Shown one piece after another: positions 6,851-20,303 of a stretch of 64,000 nucleotides of DNA (its first letter is position 1; every line of letters begins with the position of its first letter). The notes beneath the pieces were generated by a model, which was not told where the DNA came from, did no database searches, and saw only the letters and a program-made list of their open reading frames with translations. The stretch lies in the NCBI RefSeq assembly GCF_001435315.1, contig NZ_AZGK01000002.1:76763-140762 (forward strand). The letters run 5' to 3'. This DNA comes from Lentilactobacillus parabuchneri DSM 5707 = NBRC 107865 (GTDB lineage: Bacteria; Bacillota; Bacilli; Lactobacillales; Lactobacillaceae). The position numbers were made by a program, and so were the translations under genes.

Positions 6851-7984
6851 ATGACAAATTCAATCGTTCAAACTAAATTTCCGTATCGTTATGATGTTGT
6901 TGGGAGCTTATTAAGAACACAAACCCTCAAGGATGCCCACGCCAAATTTAAAGCCGGCCAAATTACTGCCGCCGAGCTTCAACAAGTCCAACACAACGAA
7001 ACCAGGAAAATTGTTGCCAAACAAGTTGACCTTGGACTCAAGGACATCACTGACGGCGAGTTTAACCGTAGTTGGTGGCACCTTGATTTTCTTTGGGGAT
7101 TAACCGGCGTTGATAAATATGACTACCATAAGAGCTACAAATTCCATGGCAGCAAGACCCGTACCGATAATGCCGAATTATCCGGCAAGGTGGCCTTCAA
7201 CCCCGACCACCCATTTTTTGAAAGCTTCCAGTTTCTTCAATCAATTACACCAGACGGGATCACACCAAAGCAAACCATCCCTTCACCAACCATGCTCTTC
7301 CGCGACAACCGCAGCGATAACTGGCCAAAGTTCTATGACACCTGGGATCAATATTTAGCCGACGTTGCCAAGGCATACCACGAAACCATTTTGCATTTCT
7401 ACGAACTTGGTGCCCGCTACATTCAACTCGACGACACCACCTGGGCATTTCTAATTAGCAAGCTCCACGAAACCGCCGATGATCCGGATGCCCATGCCAA
7501 ATATATCAAGTTGGCTGAAGACTCCGTCAAAGTCATCAATCAACTTCTTGAAGACTTACCTGCCGATTTAACCGTGACGACTCACATTTGTCGGGGAAAC
7601 TTCAAATCAACCTTTCTATTTTCCGGCGGCTACGATGGGATTGCCGACTACCTCGGTCAGCTAAATTACAACGGCCTTTTTCTTGAGTACGACAGCGAGC
7701 GGGCCGGTGACTTCACGCCACTTGATAGGATCTGGAATGGCGACAAGAACAAGCGGATTGTTCTGGGATTAATTACGTCCAAGGCACCAAAATTAGAGGA
7801 TAAAGATGCCGTCATTAATCGTATCAACCAAGCCAGTGCCAAAGTACCACTTGAAAACCTTGCACTTTCAACTCAGTGCGGCTTTGCTTCAACTGAGGAA
7901 GGCAATAAGCTGACCGAGCAGGAACAGTGGGCTAAGTTAAAGCTCGTTCGAGACATTGCCGAAGAAGTTTGGAACGTCGATTAA
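6851..7984 (+). CDS. Methionine synthase II-like (MetE C-terminal domain, YxjG/YxjH type)
   Basis: Cobalamin-independent methyltransferase of 377 residues matching only the catalytic barrel of MetE. It probably makes methionine from homocysteine with a folate or other methyl donor. Candidate zinc ligands are the His/Cys of TTHICRGNF and the Cys of STQCGFAST. The N-terminal sequence PYRYDVVGSLLR and the block KDITDGEFNRSWWHLDF are typical of YxjG-like proteins. The methionine T-box directly upstream supports the role. GGAGGATC precedes the ATG. Short forms of this family may use a donor other than the polyglutamylated folate of full-length MetE. Confidence 0.9.
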   Translation: MTNSIVQTKFPYRYDVVGSLLRTQTLKDAHAKFKAGQITAAELQQVQHNETRKIVAKQVDLGLKDITDGEFNRSWWHLDFLWGLTGVDKYDYHKSYKFHGSKTRTDNAELSGKVAFNPDHPFFESFQFLQSITPDGITPKQTIPSPTMLFRDNRSDNWPKFYDTWDQYLADVAKAYHETILHFYELGARYIQLDDTTWAFLISKLHETADDPDAHAKYIKLAEDSVKVINQLLEDLPADLTVTTHICRGNFKSTFLFSGGYDGIADYLGQLNYNGLFLEYDSERAGDFTPLDRIWNGDKNKRIVLGLITSKAPKLEDKDAVINRINQASAKVPLENLALSTQCGFASTEEGNKLTEQEQWAKLKLVRDIAEEVWNVD

Positions 7985-8013
7985 GCTGCTCATATCCGAA
8001 AAGAGGGATTCTC

Positions 8014-8208
8014 ATGGATAAATCTACGCAAAAAAGCAATCGGACACAGACCGTTTATAATCACGAGACCCATTGGCTTGGGCTGGCCCTCGGACTGGGC
8101 TTTGGCCTAGCAATTGATGCCTTATCCGGATTTAAAACCGGGACGTTCTTCACATTTGTGGGGATTGTCTTGGGAATGAGCGGCTTGTTGGATTTTAAGA
8201 AAAAATGA
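8014..8208 (+). CDS. Small hypothetical membrane protein
   Basis: A 64-residue protein with a charged, Thr/Asn/Gln-rich N terminus, two hydrophobic segments (about 22-38 and 43-58) and a lysine-rich tail (FKKK), consistent with a double-spanning membrane protein. The ATG at 8014 follows AGAGGGATTCTC. An in-frame ATG at 7969 would overlap the methionine synthase-like gene and lacks a ribosome binding site. It may be co-transcribed with that gene. No family recognised. Confidence 0.6.
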   Translation: MDKSTQKSNRTQTVYNHETHWLGLALGLGFGLAIDALSGFKTGTFFTFVGIVLGMSGLLDFKKK

Positions 8209-8233
8209 TCAGGTCCCTTCAAGCTGTCCGTTG

Positions 8234-8262
8234 TTGTCGGCTGGATCAATAAGGCATATACT
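8234..8262 (+). promoter_or_regulatory. Predicted promoter of the MFS leader transcript
   Basis: TTGTCG (8234-8239) and TATACT (8257-8262) are separated by 17 bases, close to sigma-A consensus. Transcription would start near 8269, just before the leader peptide. Confidence 0.6.
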
Positions 8263-8299
8263 TTTACCAATATCTTTCAGTAAAAAAGGAATGATCAAC

Positions 8300-8359
8300 A
8301 TGCTGGCTTGGATTAGTCTGCAACACAGCATTATAGAATTCAACGCACTTCAGTCATAG
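8300..8359 (+). CDS. Candidate 19-residue leader peptide
   Basis: Short ORF reading MLAWISLQHSIIEFNALQS, with AAGGA nine bases before its ATG (another in-frame ATG at 8291 abuts the same site). Its last codons (Asn-Ala-Leu-Gln-Ser) form the 5' arm of a 13-bp helix whose 3' arm contains the Shine-Dalgarno of the downstream MFS exporter. This is the layout of leader peptides in translational attenuation of antibiotic-resistance genes such as erm and cat. No similarity to a known stalling peptide is recognised. Function is inferred from layout only. Confidence 0.55.
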   Translation: MLAWISLQHSIIEFNALQS

Positions 8360-8436
8360 TCGAAACTTGGCACGCTACCAAACGGACCGGTACTAAATAC
8401 CCCGTCTGGCCGTGCTCACCGTAACTGGAGTGCGTT
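8342..8436 (+). promoter_or_regulatory. Shine-Dalgarno-sequestering leader hairpin (candidate translational attenuator)
   Basis: 8342-8354 pairs with 8424-8436 (13 bp, one U-G wobble). Nested helices follow: GGCACG/CGTGCT (8369-8374 with 8411-8416), CCAAACGG/CCGTCTGG (8378-8385 with 8402-8409, one mismatch) and GGTA/TACC (8389-8392 with 8398-8401). The GGAG at 8427-8430, nine bases before the MFS start codon, is buried in the outer helix. There is no T run, so control would act on translation, not termination. Confidence 0.65.
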
Positions 8437-8439
8437 ATC

Positions 8440-9612
8440 ATGAAAAACAAATATCCAAGTACCATCGCGAAAGGCTACACATACACATTTTTTTCTTTCT
8501 TTGGGATTACTTCACTGTGGGTCATCTACCTTCAGATGCAAGGATTAACCCTCGTTGAAATTGGTCTTTGTGAGAGTATCTTTCACGTGGCCAGCTTTCT
8601 CTTCGAAGTTCCGTCAGGTGTCTTGGCGGATCGATTTTCGTATCGCTTTTCCCTGTTTTGGGGCAGAATCGCAGCGATTTTATCAGCGGTTATTATTTTG
8701 ATGGCCGATAGTTTTTGGCTGTTTGCGTTAAGTTTTGTCCTTAGCGCGCTTTCTTACAACCTCCAATCAGGGACGATTGACGCGTTGATGTATGACTCGT
8801 TGGTGGCACCAAAGCTTACTGATAGATTCCCAAAAGTGATTAGTAATCTCAATGTCGCCATTGAATTTTCCCAAACCTCCGGAGTCGTTATTGCCGGCTT
8901 TCTGGTTCACTGGCACTTTGAGCTGACCTACGTTGTAGCAATTATAATTGGTGTATTTGGCTTGATTACCGTTTTGTTAATGCAAGAGCCTAGGATTCCC
9001 AAATCAGTGGAGACCCCGGAACAAACCATCCGGACAATTGTAATCATGGCCTATCGCACCTTAAAAAACAACCGTCAACTTCGTGGCTTGATGGGCTTTC
9101 AGGCGCTCTTTGACGGTGTCTGTACCAGTTATTTTTTCTACTTTCAATCGTTAATGGAAACGCACCATTTCTCTGGCACCCTCATTTCACTACTGATGGT
9201 CATCTCAGCGGGAATGGATATAATCGGAATCAAATTGACTCCCTGGATCCAAAAACGATTGTCAAAATCAACTCTGGTCATGAGTTTAAGCGCTGCGCTC
9301 GTCTGCTTATTACTACTGAGCTGGTTTAACTGGATTCCGGGATTGACCGTCCTGTTTTTAACCTCGCAATTACTGGGCGCCTTAATTGAGCCAATTTTTA
9401 GCAGTTATTACAATGAACTCATTGACTCAGAGCAGCGGGCAACCCTGCTGAGCGTTGCGAGCGTTTTGTTTTCAGCTTCAATGATTGTCTTATTCCCACT
9501 CATTGGCTGGCTGGTTCAAACTTGGACGTTTTCCATGGGATTTGGTATTATCGGCTGCATCATTTTACTTTTATTAATCTTAAATAAATTCAAATTGAAT
9601 TTTGCAAACTAA
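8440..9612 (+). CDS. MFS transporter, probable drug/multidrug exporter
   Basis: A 390-residue polytopic protein with about 12 membrane segments. The N-terminal half carries an MFS loop motif, EVPSGVLADRFSYRFSLFWGR, after the second and third segments. The overall pattern resembles exporters of the DHA3/tetracycline-type MFS groups. Substrate unknown. It stands alone behind its own promoter, a short leader peptide and a hairpin hiding its ribosome binding site, which suggests inducible synthesis, perhaps by a ribosome-targeting compound (inference). It ends at a strong bidirectional terminator. Confidence 0.85.
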   Translation: MKNKYPSTIAKGYTYTFFSFFGITSLWVIYLQMQGLTLVEIGLCESIFHVASFLFEVPSGVLADRFSYRFSLFWGRIAAILSAVIILMADSFWLFALSFVLSALSYNLQSGTIDALMYDSLVAPKLTDRFPKVISNLNVAIEFSQTSGVVIAGFLVHWHFELTYVVAIIIGVFGLITVLLMQEPRIPKSVETPEQTIRTIVIMAYRTLKNNRQLRGLMGFQALFDGVCTSYFFYFQSLMETHHFSGTLISLLMVISAGMDIIGIKLTPWIQKRLSKSTLVMSLSAALVCLLLLSWFNWIPGLTVLFLTSQLLGALIEPIFSSYYNELIDSEQRATLLSVASVLFSASMIVLFPLIGWLVQTWTFSMGFGIIGCIILLLLILNKFKLNFAN

Positions 9613-9666
9613 AAGGATGGTTCAAGAAGTCGTACACAAGCGATTTCTTGGACCATCCTTTTTGAT
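9611..9666. terminator. Bidirectional intrinsic terminator
   Basis: AAAAGGATGGTTCAAGAA and TTTCTTGGACCATCCTTTTT form a long stem with A and T tracts at its ends, between the MFS gene and the convergent dsdA. Confidence 0.88.
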
Positions 9667-9690
9667 TTGAGTTTTTAATTAACAATGACT

Positions 9691-10992
9691 TTACGATTTT
9701 AGGAGTGCTTCTCCTTTAGCATGGTCAACACGGCGTTCGCTTTCTGGCATCATACTGCCGCCAGTTGCCCAAACAATATGAGTGGCGTTTTCCGAATTGA
9801 AATCAGGCACTTCTGTAATTGCCCGTTCAATGGCGGTAAAGCCTGCAGCAGCTGATGGTTCAACGGTTATATGCTCGGTATCCATTAACTGGGCCTCGTA
9901 TTTGTAAATTGTGGGGTCTTGGAAAGTCGTGCTGCCAAATAAAAGGGTTCGCATAACTTTGCCGGCAATTCGAGAGGGCCTTCCAACGGCCAAACCATCG
10001 GCAGCAGTCTTGCCATCTAAGCCAATATCAAAGACTGAAATCTCGTTGTTCAGCTTGGTCATCATCCCCAAAGTCACTGACGGCACGTGGGTCGGCTCAC
10101 AGAAAATGGCATGAATATTTTCGCCAATAATTGTTTTCAGCCCAAACGTAACGCCACTTGGGCTTCCGCCAACGCCGGCTGGTAAATAAACAACAACCGG
10201 ATGGTTCTGATCGACTTTAATATTTAAATCATCAAGTTGTTTTTTCAGGCGAACACCCGCGACTGCATAACCAATGAACAGGTCTCGGGACCCCTCGTCG
10301 TCAATGAAATGAATCTGATCATCTTTGGCCGCGGCTTCCCGGGCCTTTGGAATAACAGATGAAAAATCAGTGTCCAACTCAACGACATTCACACCACTAG
10401 CCCTTAACTTGGCCTTTTTCCATTCCTTGGCATCCCGCGACATATAAACGGTTGTCTTGAAACCAAATGTTGAGGCCGCAATCCCGACGCTTAACGCCAA
10501 ATTCCCCGTTGAGGCAACCATGACACCATACTGGGCAAAAAGTTGCTTATACTTGGGTGATCGTAAAATTGCATAGTTATCAGTCGGCTTGAGGTCGCCC
10601 TTTGTCAAAGCCACGTGTTCAGCAAATTTCAGCACTTCATAGATACCACCACGGGATTTAATTGATCCAGAGATTGGCAGTTGACTATCGGCCTTCAAAA
10701 AAAGGCTGCCAGCGATAGCCGTTTGATGATCCTGATTAAATAACTGCTTCATCTTGTCCAATCTAATCAGTGGCGACTCAATGATGCCATGCATATTAGC
10801 AGTTTCGGGAAAGGCCGCCTCAATGAAGGGCGCAAAACGATCCCAGCGGGCAACTGCATCAAATATCTCTTCTTTAGAAAAAGGGAGGTCAGCAGATTTC
10901 CCATAGTCTGGATTCTTCCAAAAAATCGGCTTTTTAGCCATCATTTCTTTTACTTGTGGATACTGGTCGGTCAAGGTCTGTGTATTATCCAT
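9691..10992 (-). CDS. dsdA: D-serine ammonia-lyase
   Basis: PLP-dependent fold-type II enzyme converting D-serine to pyruvate and ammonia. The PLP lysine is in SGSIKSRGG (about residue 114). Other family blocks are MVASTGNLALSVGI, YLPAGVGGSPSGVTFGLK (phosphate-binding glycine loop) and THIVWATGGSMMPE near the C terminus. 433 residues is the normal DsdA length. The ATG follows TTAGGAGATAACCGG. It is monocistronic with no dsdC-type regulator next to it, so it probably serves for detoxification or as a pyruvate source. Confidence 0.95.
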   Translation of the reverse strand: MDNTQTLTDQYPQVKEMMAKKPIFWKNPDYGKSADLPFSKEEIFDAVARWDRFAPFIEAAFPETANMHGIIESPLIRLDKMKQLFNQDHQTAIAGSLFLKADSQLPISGSIKSRGGIYEVLKFAEHVALTKGDLKPTDNYAILRSPKYKQLFAQYGVMVASTGNLALSVGIAASTFGFKTTVYMSRDAKEWKKAKLRASGVNVVELDTDFSSVIPKAREAAAKDDQIHFIDDEGSRDLFIGYAVAGVRLKKQLDDLNIKVDQNHPVVVYLPAGVGGSPSGVTFGLKTIIGENIHAIFCEPTHVPSVTLGMMTKLNNEISVFDIGLDGKTAADGLAVGRPSRIAGKVMRTLLFGSTTFQDPTIYKYEAQLMDTEHITVEPSAAAGFTAIERAITEVPDFNSENATHIVWATGGSMMPESERRVDHAKGEALLKS

Positions 10993-19984: not shown

Positions 19985-20049
19985 GGGTCAATGCTCCTTA
20001 AAGCAAAATTTTCAAACAGAACGTAACCGGACTTGGTACAGATTGTTCT

Positions 20050-20142
20050 CATTTCTTCCACTTCCCTACGTTGGTATTAACCAAATCAGGTTCAAAGGGA
20101 TTGGCGAATTGCCATCTCAGCACAAGGCACCCCTAGTGATCT
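20050..20142 (-). promoter_or_regulatory. TPP riboswitch (THI element)
   Basis: Read on the minus strand, the conserved order is ACTAGGGGTGCC, GCTGAGATGG, CCCTTTGAACCTGAT, then GGTTAATACCAACGTAGGG, matching the THI-box consensus. It ends about 65 bases before tenA. No clear terminator stem follows, so control may act on translation initiation. Confidence 0.95.
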
Positions 20143-20303
20143 TATTTGAATATCCAAAGTCTAACATATTTGGGCGGGGGTTTTACGATTTTCTTTTAAT
20201 CAAAAAGAATTCAGCAATAGTAACCAACGCATGAAAAGAAGCTGCTGATCTCATATTGAGATTTACAACGTCTTTAACTTTATATTGTTATTACACTTAC
20301 GAC

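Follow-up and report, generated by a model that had tools for sequence, protein, structure and literature searches.

A conserved leader peptide and a Shine-Dalgarno-hiding helix upstream of an MFS transporter gene in Lentilactobacillus parabuchneri and its relatives

An MFS transporter gene of Lentilactobacillus parabuchneri DSM 5707 (= NBRC 107865) is preceded by a conserved leader peptide and by a conserved helix that hides the Shine-Dalgarno (SD) sequence of the transporter gene, with fixed spacing between the two. The locus is probably a translational attenuator in which the leader peptide acts as the sensor. All positions below refer to the window, the whole stretch of 64,000 nucleotides that was analysed (contig NZ_AZGK01000002.1, positions 76,763 to 140,762), and lie on its forward strand unless stated otherwise. 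A preliminary description, made from the letters of the sequence, had read the region as an antibiotic-type attenuator in front of an exporter; our analysis confirms the observation behind it and gives good support to the attenuator reading.

The leader ORF, the helix and the transporter gene

The leader open reading frame (ORF) runs from ATG 8300 to TAG 8357–8359 and comprises 19 codons (MLAWISLQHSIIEFNALQS, followed by the stop), with its own SD sequence, AAGGA, at 8286–8290; the 19 codons and the AAGGA site agree with the preliminary description. Another in-frame ATG lies at 8291. The start at 8300 is favoured over it by the relatives, as each of the 26 distinct loci with the same architecture, hereafter the window type, has a start codon three codons ahead of a Trp codon (ATG in 19, TTG in 6 and GTG in 1, the window included). 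This Trp codon, codon 4 (8309–8311), is invariant in the 26 loci, and codon 11 (8330–8332) encodes Ile in 25 of them and Val in one. Leu occupies position 7 in 22 of the 26 leaders; the residue four after the Trp (W+4) is Gln in 18 and Lys in 8; and position 12 is Ile in 12, Thr in 8, Val in 3 and Phe in 3. At the other end, residue 16 is Ala in 19, Thr in 5 and Pro in 2, residue 17 is Leu throughout, and none of the leaders ends in Pro. Within the genus, in-frame pN/pS was 0.267 over leader codons 2–15 and 0.155 over codons 3–12, similar to the value for the N-terminus of the MFS protein (0.296), versus 1.00 and 1.48 in the other two frames (13 codons). The leader peptide is under selection at the protein level, and coding selection is confined to the leader frame.

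Leader codons 15–19 contain the 5′ arm (8342–8354) of a 13-bp outer helix, whose 3′ arm (8424–8436) holds the SD sequence of the MFS gene (GGAG, 8427–8430). The helix had been proposed by inspection, and it is present in the minimum free energy (MFE) fold of 8269–8470. This fold has −51.3 kcal/mol, compared with a mean of −40.1 (s.d. 4.24) for shuffles of the same stretch (z = −2.64), 3 of 200 of which fold as well. In the window the loop carries an inner hairpin (8370–8415); across the 26 loci the loop between the core arms measures 27–103 nt, and in some it is too short for such a hairpin. In the window, no contiguous helix to the SD region is longer than these 13 pairs, a length that none of 100 shuffles of the upstream stretch reached. 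For the remaining 25 window-type loci, 0 to 7 of 100 shuffles reached the observed length, so that any one locus is not always decisive, whereas the set of loci is.

A contiguous helix of 10–14 bp between the leader end and the SD region is kept in 26/26 distinct loci, the window included, and its ten core pairs (alignment columns 64–73) are paired in all cells but one. In the 26-locus alignment, 81.4% of the cells are paired, compared with 32–39% when the partners are slid. This percentage, the number of cells with a two-sided change (40 versus 23.2) and the helix covariation score (0.264 versus 0.186) each lay above all 500 column shuffles. Two-sided changes occur in seven pairs, most clearly in column pair 64–176 (GC, GU, AU, CG), and clearly also in 72–168 (GC, AU) and 74–166 (GC, UA, AU). 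The count of pairs changed on both sides did not clearly exceed the column shuffle (7 versus 6.3; 213 of 500 as high), nor did that of further pair types (24 versus 21.0; 37 of 500 as high). As expected for an arm that carries an SD sequence, five helix pairs show no variation at all. The helix is conserved with compensatory changes, and the distance from the Trp codon to the CACT of the helix arm is 37 nt in all 26 loci. As a separate observation, the leader Trp region (8306–8313, GCTTGGAT) pairs in the MFE fold with MFS codons 5–7 (8453–8460, ATCCAAGT).

A putative sigma-70-type promoter, TTGTCG-17-TATACT, lies at 8234–8262. The site had been called near-consensus, which is too strong for 9 matches out of 12: a scan of 7900–9750 found six sites at this level where 2.9 were expected, which places it weakly above chance. 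Directly upstream of this promoter is an ORF of 64 aa (8014–8208), hydrophobic by eye, and DNA resembling its end is also found upstream in L002, L015 and L020. At the other end, the MFS gene is followed by a strong intrinsic terminator (9613–9660) with a 20-pair stem and then a T tract. Searches of Rfam at gathering score returned nothing for 20 related loci and, in the window, only a TPP riboswitch away from the locus (20046–20144, minus strand, 83 bits); a known RNA family was therefore rejected for the leader region.

The MFS gene (8440–9612) encodes a protein of 390 aa that matches Pfam MFS_1 with 102 bits, and an AlphaFold2 model built from 12 sequences has the MFS fold (mean pLDDT 84.1). 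Export is likely and is read from sequence similarity: the matches to Tet(40) (41.2 bits; cut-off 800) and TetA(P) (37 bits; cut-off 750) are far below the family thresholds, that to NorA is weak (E = 0.0028), and there is a weak likeness to the HP1165 exporter. The predicted fold matches NorA, MdfA, NupG and sugar carriers alike; Foldseek found exporters and importers about equally and gave no separation by substrate or direction. We regard the protein as a generic MFS member. Tested strains of L. parabuchneri are reported to have tetracycline MICs of 16–64 mg/L, with no cause stated in the accessible part of the source (PMC11732008). To connect these values with the MFS protein would be a guess; if it were correct, the leader and the transporter may bear on intrinsic drug tolerance.

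Occurrence of the leader and its other outputs

The genome groups with Lentilactobacillus, its best named matches being L. parakefiri (78%), L. fungorum, L. sunkii and others. At E ≤ 1e−60 the MFS gene was found in 16 of 24 genomes of the genus, and three of the other eight are less than 90% complete. All 16 have the leader, and all 16 loci keep both ORF and helix with compensatory changes. No leader was found in the eight genomes that lack the MFS gene, using a leader-peptide HMM and a covariance model. The HMM gave E ≤ 2.4e−6 in the 16 MFS-bearing genomes and at best 0.041 in the other eight; the covariance model gave E ≤ 1.6e−20 in the same 16 and 0.0054 as the next best value. By construction these matches are no test, since the HMM was built mostly and the covariance model wholly from these 16 leaders; what is informative is that the leader is a single copy always located before the MFS gene and is absent where this gene is absent. 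In L. parakefiri JCM 8573 (L002/L016), the MFS frame contains internal stop codons, and leader and helix are intact.

The region upstream of the MFS gene was read in 18 loci first and later in 68 of the 69 places found by a family search of 397 genomes, a broken MFS remnant in G052 being left out. The 68 loci comprise 27 of the window type (26 distinct ones and L038, which nearly duplicates L036), 25 of a terminator type, 4 hybrids, 4 with a diverged leader and 8 leader-less ones. The leader is present in eight genera (g1, g13, g22, g30, g12, g15, g29 and g38) and in a diverged form in g5; the four diverged leaders, all from one genus, have no Trp by eye. An MFS gene with neither ORF nor helix, which the preliminary description had said would count against an attenuator, was not encountered in the genus. 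In the family, 8 of the 68 loci have no recognisable leader or helix; for five of these, the same genome has another copy that does carry a leader. Six MFS loci without the Trp leader are five second copies in one genus and one single copy (L075–L078, L080 and L081). By eye, an AGTGGGG or GGTGGGG stretch precedes the gene in four of them (L075, L077, L078 and L081), and none of the six has an Rfam match.

Beyond the genus, the proposed architecture is kept in part: a related ORF is found in 29 loci (25 terminator-type and 4 hybrid), mostly followed by a hairpin and a terminator instead of the helix. Over the 55 leaders of all types, the first position of the motif is Trp in 53, Phe in one (L043) and Tyr in one (L050), and position +7 is Ile in 49, the exceptions being L010, L058, L066, L068, L074 and L079. 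W+4 is Gln in 22, Lys in 20 and another residue in 13. A hairpin starting with GGG(G), looked for at 36 to 60 nt after the aromatic codon, begins 44–46 nt past that codon in 29/29 loci, irrespective of whether the ORF stops there. A 24-nt stretch forms a stem of at least five pairs in 27 of the 29 loci (mean 6.7 pairs, versus 4.7 after shuffling), and AGTCT occurs in it in 20 of the 29. A terminator-like hairpin was seen in 25 of the 29 loci (not in L045, L047, L074 and L079), with a T tract that begins 16–43 nt before the MFS start. Such a hairpin is also present in all four diverged loci and in the leader-less L013, L076 and L080. Among the 26 window-type loci it occurs once, where it is weak and overlaps the leader (L005).

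The hybrids (L042, L045, L047 and L057) have a different SD helix, formed by CCTTCAAGG with CCTTGAAGG. In L057 both sides of one pair have changed (T-A to C-G), and singly these helices are within chance, with 2 to 28 of 100 shuffles as long. The hairpin of L045 and L047 is degraded, and no terminator was seen there. Two terminator-type loci (L067 and L071) have an 11-pair helix between the leader start and the SD region (1 and 5 of 100 shuffles, respectively). A pairing of the Trp region with a stretch past the hairpin, similar to that in the window, appears possible by eye in several terminator-type loci. A long-range antiterminator was set aside for the terminator type: in 28 of 33 loci (the hairpin pattern missed five), the RNA was folded from the hairpin on, without the 5′ part of the latter, and inspection by eye revealed no consistent alternative that would break the terminator.

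Given the related peptide in front of a hairpin or terminator in these 29 loci, one sensor peptide seems to serve both translational and transcription-type outputs. In a quick MFS tree of 68 rows, in which some end branches are long, the 26 window-type loci are split from all other rows by a single branch (SH-aLRT 91), the hybrids by another (SH-aLRT 80), and nine leader-less rows need four changes. From this branch pattern we read the leader as older than the split of its outputs.

Copies of the leader before other genes were sought with the peptide HMM in the 24 genus genomes (E ≤ 10) and in 395 genomes of the order (E ≤ 0.05). In the order, 31 places passed, four of which are leaders before the MFS gene. 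Eleven of the other 27 and two of the weak matches in the genus, 13 places altogether, were read by eye and judged to be chance; the remaining 16 of the order comprise 15 inside open frames of at least 116 aa and one in a frame of 25 aa (G594). Among the places read in these 24 and 395 genomes, none was a convincing additional copy without the MFS gene, and this means none at the sensitivity of the HMM, which is weak on the most diverged terminator-type leaders. A class-level sample of 398 genomes contained an MFS match at E ≤ 1e−60 in 11, ten besides the genome of the window, and the Trp leader was recognised in none of these ten, all outside the family. Among more distant homologues, it was not recognised in Sporolactobacillus L013, in L179, in nine order-level loci or on one Lactococcus plasmid. 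The bare string W-x6-I/V occurs in 6 of 11 of these loci (L179, the nine order-level loci and the plasmid), outside any leader-like ORF there.

A different arrangement was observed before more distant MFS homologues in nine genomes of another family of the order (35–38%) and on the Lactococcus plasmid pUC109A (33%). All ten loci (L180–L188 and L139) lack the Trp leader and show, 64–71 nt before the MFS start, an SD sequence and then an ATG-stop. It may be a start-stop uORF; in L180 and L183–L185 it can also be read as the peptide MKEVEKM, ending at a stop, and in L186 and L187 a frame of more than 280 codons runs into the site. A 10-bp helix after the ATG-stop reaches the MFS SD sequence in L182, and the other nine have no such clear helix. 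The literature on start-stop uORFs that we searched offered nothing bearing on this arrangement.

A proposed arrest mechanism and its alternatives

We placed a ribosome at set codons of the 26 leaders in a thermodynamic model and recorded the probability that the SD GGAG is unpaired. This probability was 0.00 in all 26 models when the RNA was free and when the ribosome stood at codon 1 or at Trp codon 4. It rose to a mean of 0.28 with the ribosome at codon 12 and of 0.44 (range 0.05 to 0.85) at codon 16. That blocking the 5′ arm opens the SD sequence is built into the model, and the opening is only partial; a ribosome at codon 12 or 16 is predicted to free the SD sequence in part. The closed state at the Trp and start codons argues against Trp starvation and against a stall at initiation as direct triggers.

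In the mechanism that we propose, a ribosome in the resting state would finish the leader, the helix would re-form and the MFS gene would be silent. On induction, the nascent chain, with Trp4, Leu7, Ile11 and Ile or Thr12 in the exit tunnel, and a small molecule would together halt the ribosome near codons 13–17. The halted ribosome would cover the 5′ arm, the SD sequence would be freed and the transporter would be made. If Trp4 is placed like Trp12 of TnaC, the P site would be occupied by codon 16, and the ribosome would then shield the helix arm of window-type loci and the beginning of the hairpin in loci of the other type. We infer this halt position from the spacing. Residues 13–15, which would be next to the peptidyl-transferase centre (PTC) in the presumed halt, are variable, so that no defined arrest site can be read from the leaders. 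Most likely, the halt is triggered by a compound with a site of action in the ribosomal tunnel or the PTC, and the transporter removes this compound. An antibiotic, another tunnel-binding compound and a metabolite are all candidate inducers, and induction by an antibiotic is possible.

A narrower form of this explanation, a drug-specific attenuator of the erm/cat type, falls a little short of an even chance. Here the arrest would occur only with a bound antibiotic (a macrolide, lincosamide, phenicol or similar), and the MFS protein would be a dedicated resistance pump. The anatomy is the same as that of the erm/cat attenuators. Small penultimate residues favour phenicol arrest, and residue 16 is Ala, Thr or Pro in the 26 leaders; however, the SD pairing also dictates Ala16-Leu17 in window-type loci, and leaders of other genera often have V, N or H at position 16. 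Supporting the drug-specific form, the BmrB and mef/mel leaders are described, in the accessible parts of the reports, as doing likewise for transporters (PMC4191407, PMC4335068). Against it, no known drug leader was recognised in the peptide by eye, and a start-codon halt such as tetracycline is described to cause in toiL, in what is accessible of that report, leaves the SD sequence closed in the model (PMC12121999).

A broader reading, which we hold tentatively and at clearly less than even chance, is that the leaders form a stand-alone family of arrest peptides in Lactobacillaceae. The aromatic-x6-Ile chain would read a tunnel-binding metabolite or natural product and would be wired to at least three outputs that control one orthologous transporter; taken jointly and with the same reserve, these would be the Lentilactobacillus-type SD helix, the terminator type and an independently gained SD helix.

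The other narrower form, a TnaC-like metabolite sensor, is unlikely. It takes the Trp4/Leu7/Ile11 face as a tunnel pocket for a small, perhaps aromatic, metabolite moved by the MFS protein. The W-x6-I spacing equals that of W12-I19 in TnaC, the Leu at W+3 (22/26) is hydrophobic like Ile15 of TnaC, and three residues stand ahead of the Trp where TnaC needs at least two. The near-constant aromatic residue and the Ile at +7 across the 55 leaders fit as well. However, none of the 55 leaders has an Asp at W+4, the window type has no equivalent of Pro24, and by a rough estimate one peptide in about fifty would match at two or three positions by chance.

It is quite improbable that the leader has no regulated halt and serves plain translational coupling or makes a small functional protein. 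Translation of the leader would by itself open the helix for a time, but the fixed spacing of the Trp codon to two unrelated RNA elements (37 nt and 44–46 nt) and the related peptide before terminator-like hairpins fit a halted ribosome better, and, among the places read and at the sensitivity of the HMM, the leader was found with this MFS gene only. An amino-acid starvation attenuator on Trp or Ile codons would account for the invariant Trp codon and the several Ile and Leu codons, and a ribosome waiting at codons 11–12 would partly open the helix, yet it is very improbable, as the Trp-codon ribosome leaves the SD sequence fully closed in all 26 models, which led us to reject a Trp-starvation trigger, the codons are single and scattered rather than in a run, and 14 of 26 leaders have Thr, Val or Phe in place of Ile at position 12.

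If the preferred reading of a sensory leader peptide is correct, the locus would represent an uncharacterised sensory nascent peptide that is shared by several lactobacillus genera, and a natural example of a sensor that was kept when the output was swapped between translation and transcription; a compound that halts the leader would then be a direct route to what the transporter handles. The literature that we searched, mostly without subscription papers, contained no description of this leader. In its accessible part, a 2010 survey of attenuators includes an ABC-leader in lactobacilli and not this MFS gene (PMC2965389).

Comparison with known systems

In the erm/cat attenuators (ErmC, ErmB, cat-86), the leader end overlaps a helix that hides the SD sequence of the next gene. 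The 26 window-type loci share with them both a leader ORF under coding selection and a helix of 10–14 contiguous pairs from leader end to SD sequence; they differ in that the leader peptide is not recognisably related, the target is an MFS gene and the helix has a single-helix form. The leader peptides BmrB of bmrCD and mef/mel likewise precede genes of drug transporters and resemble the terminator-type relatives; in the accessible text, bmrCD is induced by lincomycin, erythromycin and chloramphenicol (PMC4191407, PMC4335068). As described there, both differ from the window locus in using transcriptional attenuation, and BmrCD is an ABC transporter. For the toiL uORF of topAI-yjhQ, the accessible part of the report proposes that ribosome stalls open a structure occluding the ribosome-binding site, in response to at least five antibiotic classes via stalls at different positions (PMC12121999). 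The likeness to toiL is one of proposed mechanism, peptides aside.

With regard to the peptide, a Trp with Ile at +7 is shared with TnaC (window type, Trp 26/26 and Ile 25/26; all types, 53/55 and 49/55). SecM has the same spacing in W-I-S-x4-I, ends in G-I-R-A-G-P and senses secretion; the present leaders have no such end. TnaC senses free tryptophan and needs Asp16 for L-Trp sensing. In the accessible parts of the structural and functional reports, Trp12 of TnaC is close to the constriction of the tunnel, Ile19 is beside A2058/A2059 and Pro24 is at the PTC, and at least two residues are needed ahead of the Trp (PMC3902921, PMC10941005, PMC8429421). Unlike TnaC, the window-type leaders have no Pro-stop end, residue 17 being Leu in 26/26 and residue 16 Pro in two, and the tna operon uses Rho where the window locus has the SD helix. 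We do not count the peptide among the TnaC members because a counterpart of Asp16 is missing in 55/55 leaders and one of Pro24 in the window type; by analogy, TnaC with its W-x6-I spacing is the nearest mechanistic resemblance that we found.
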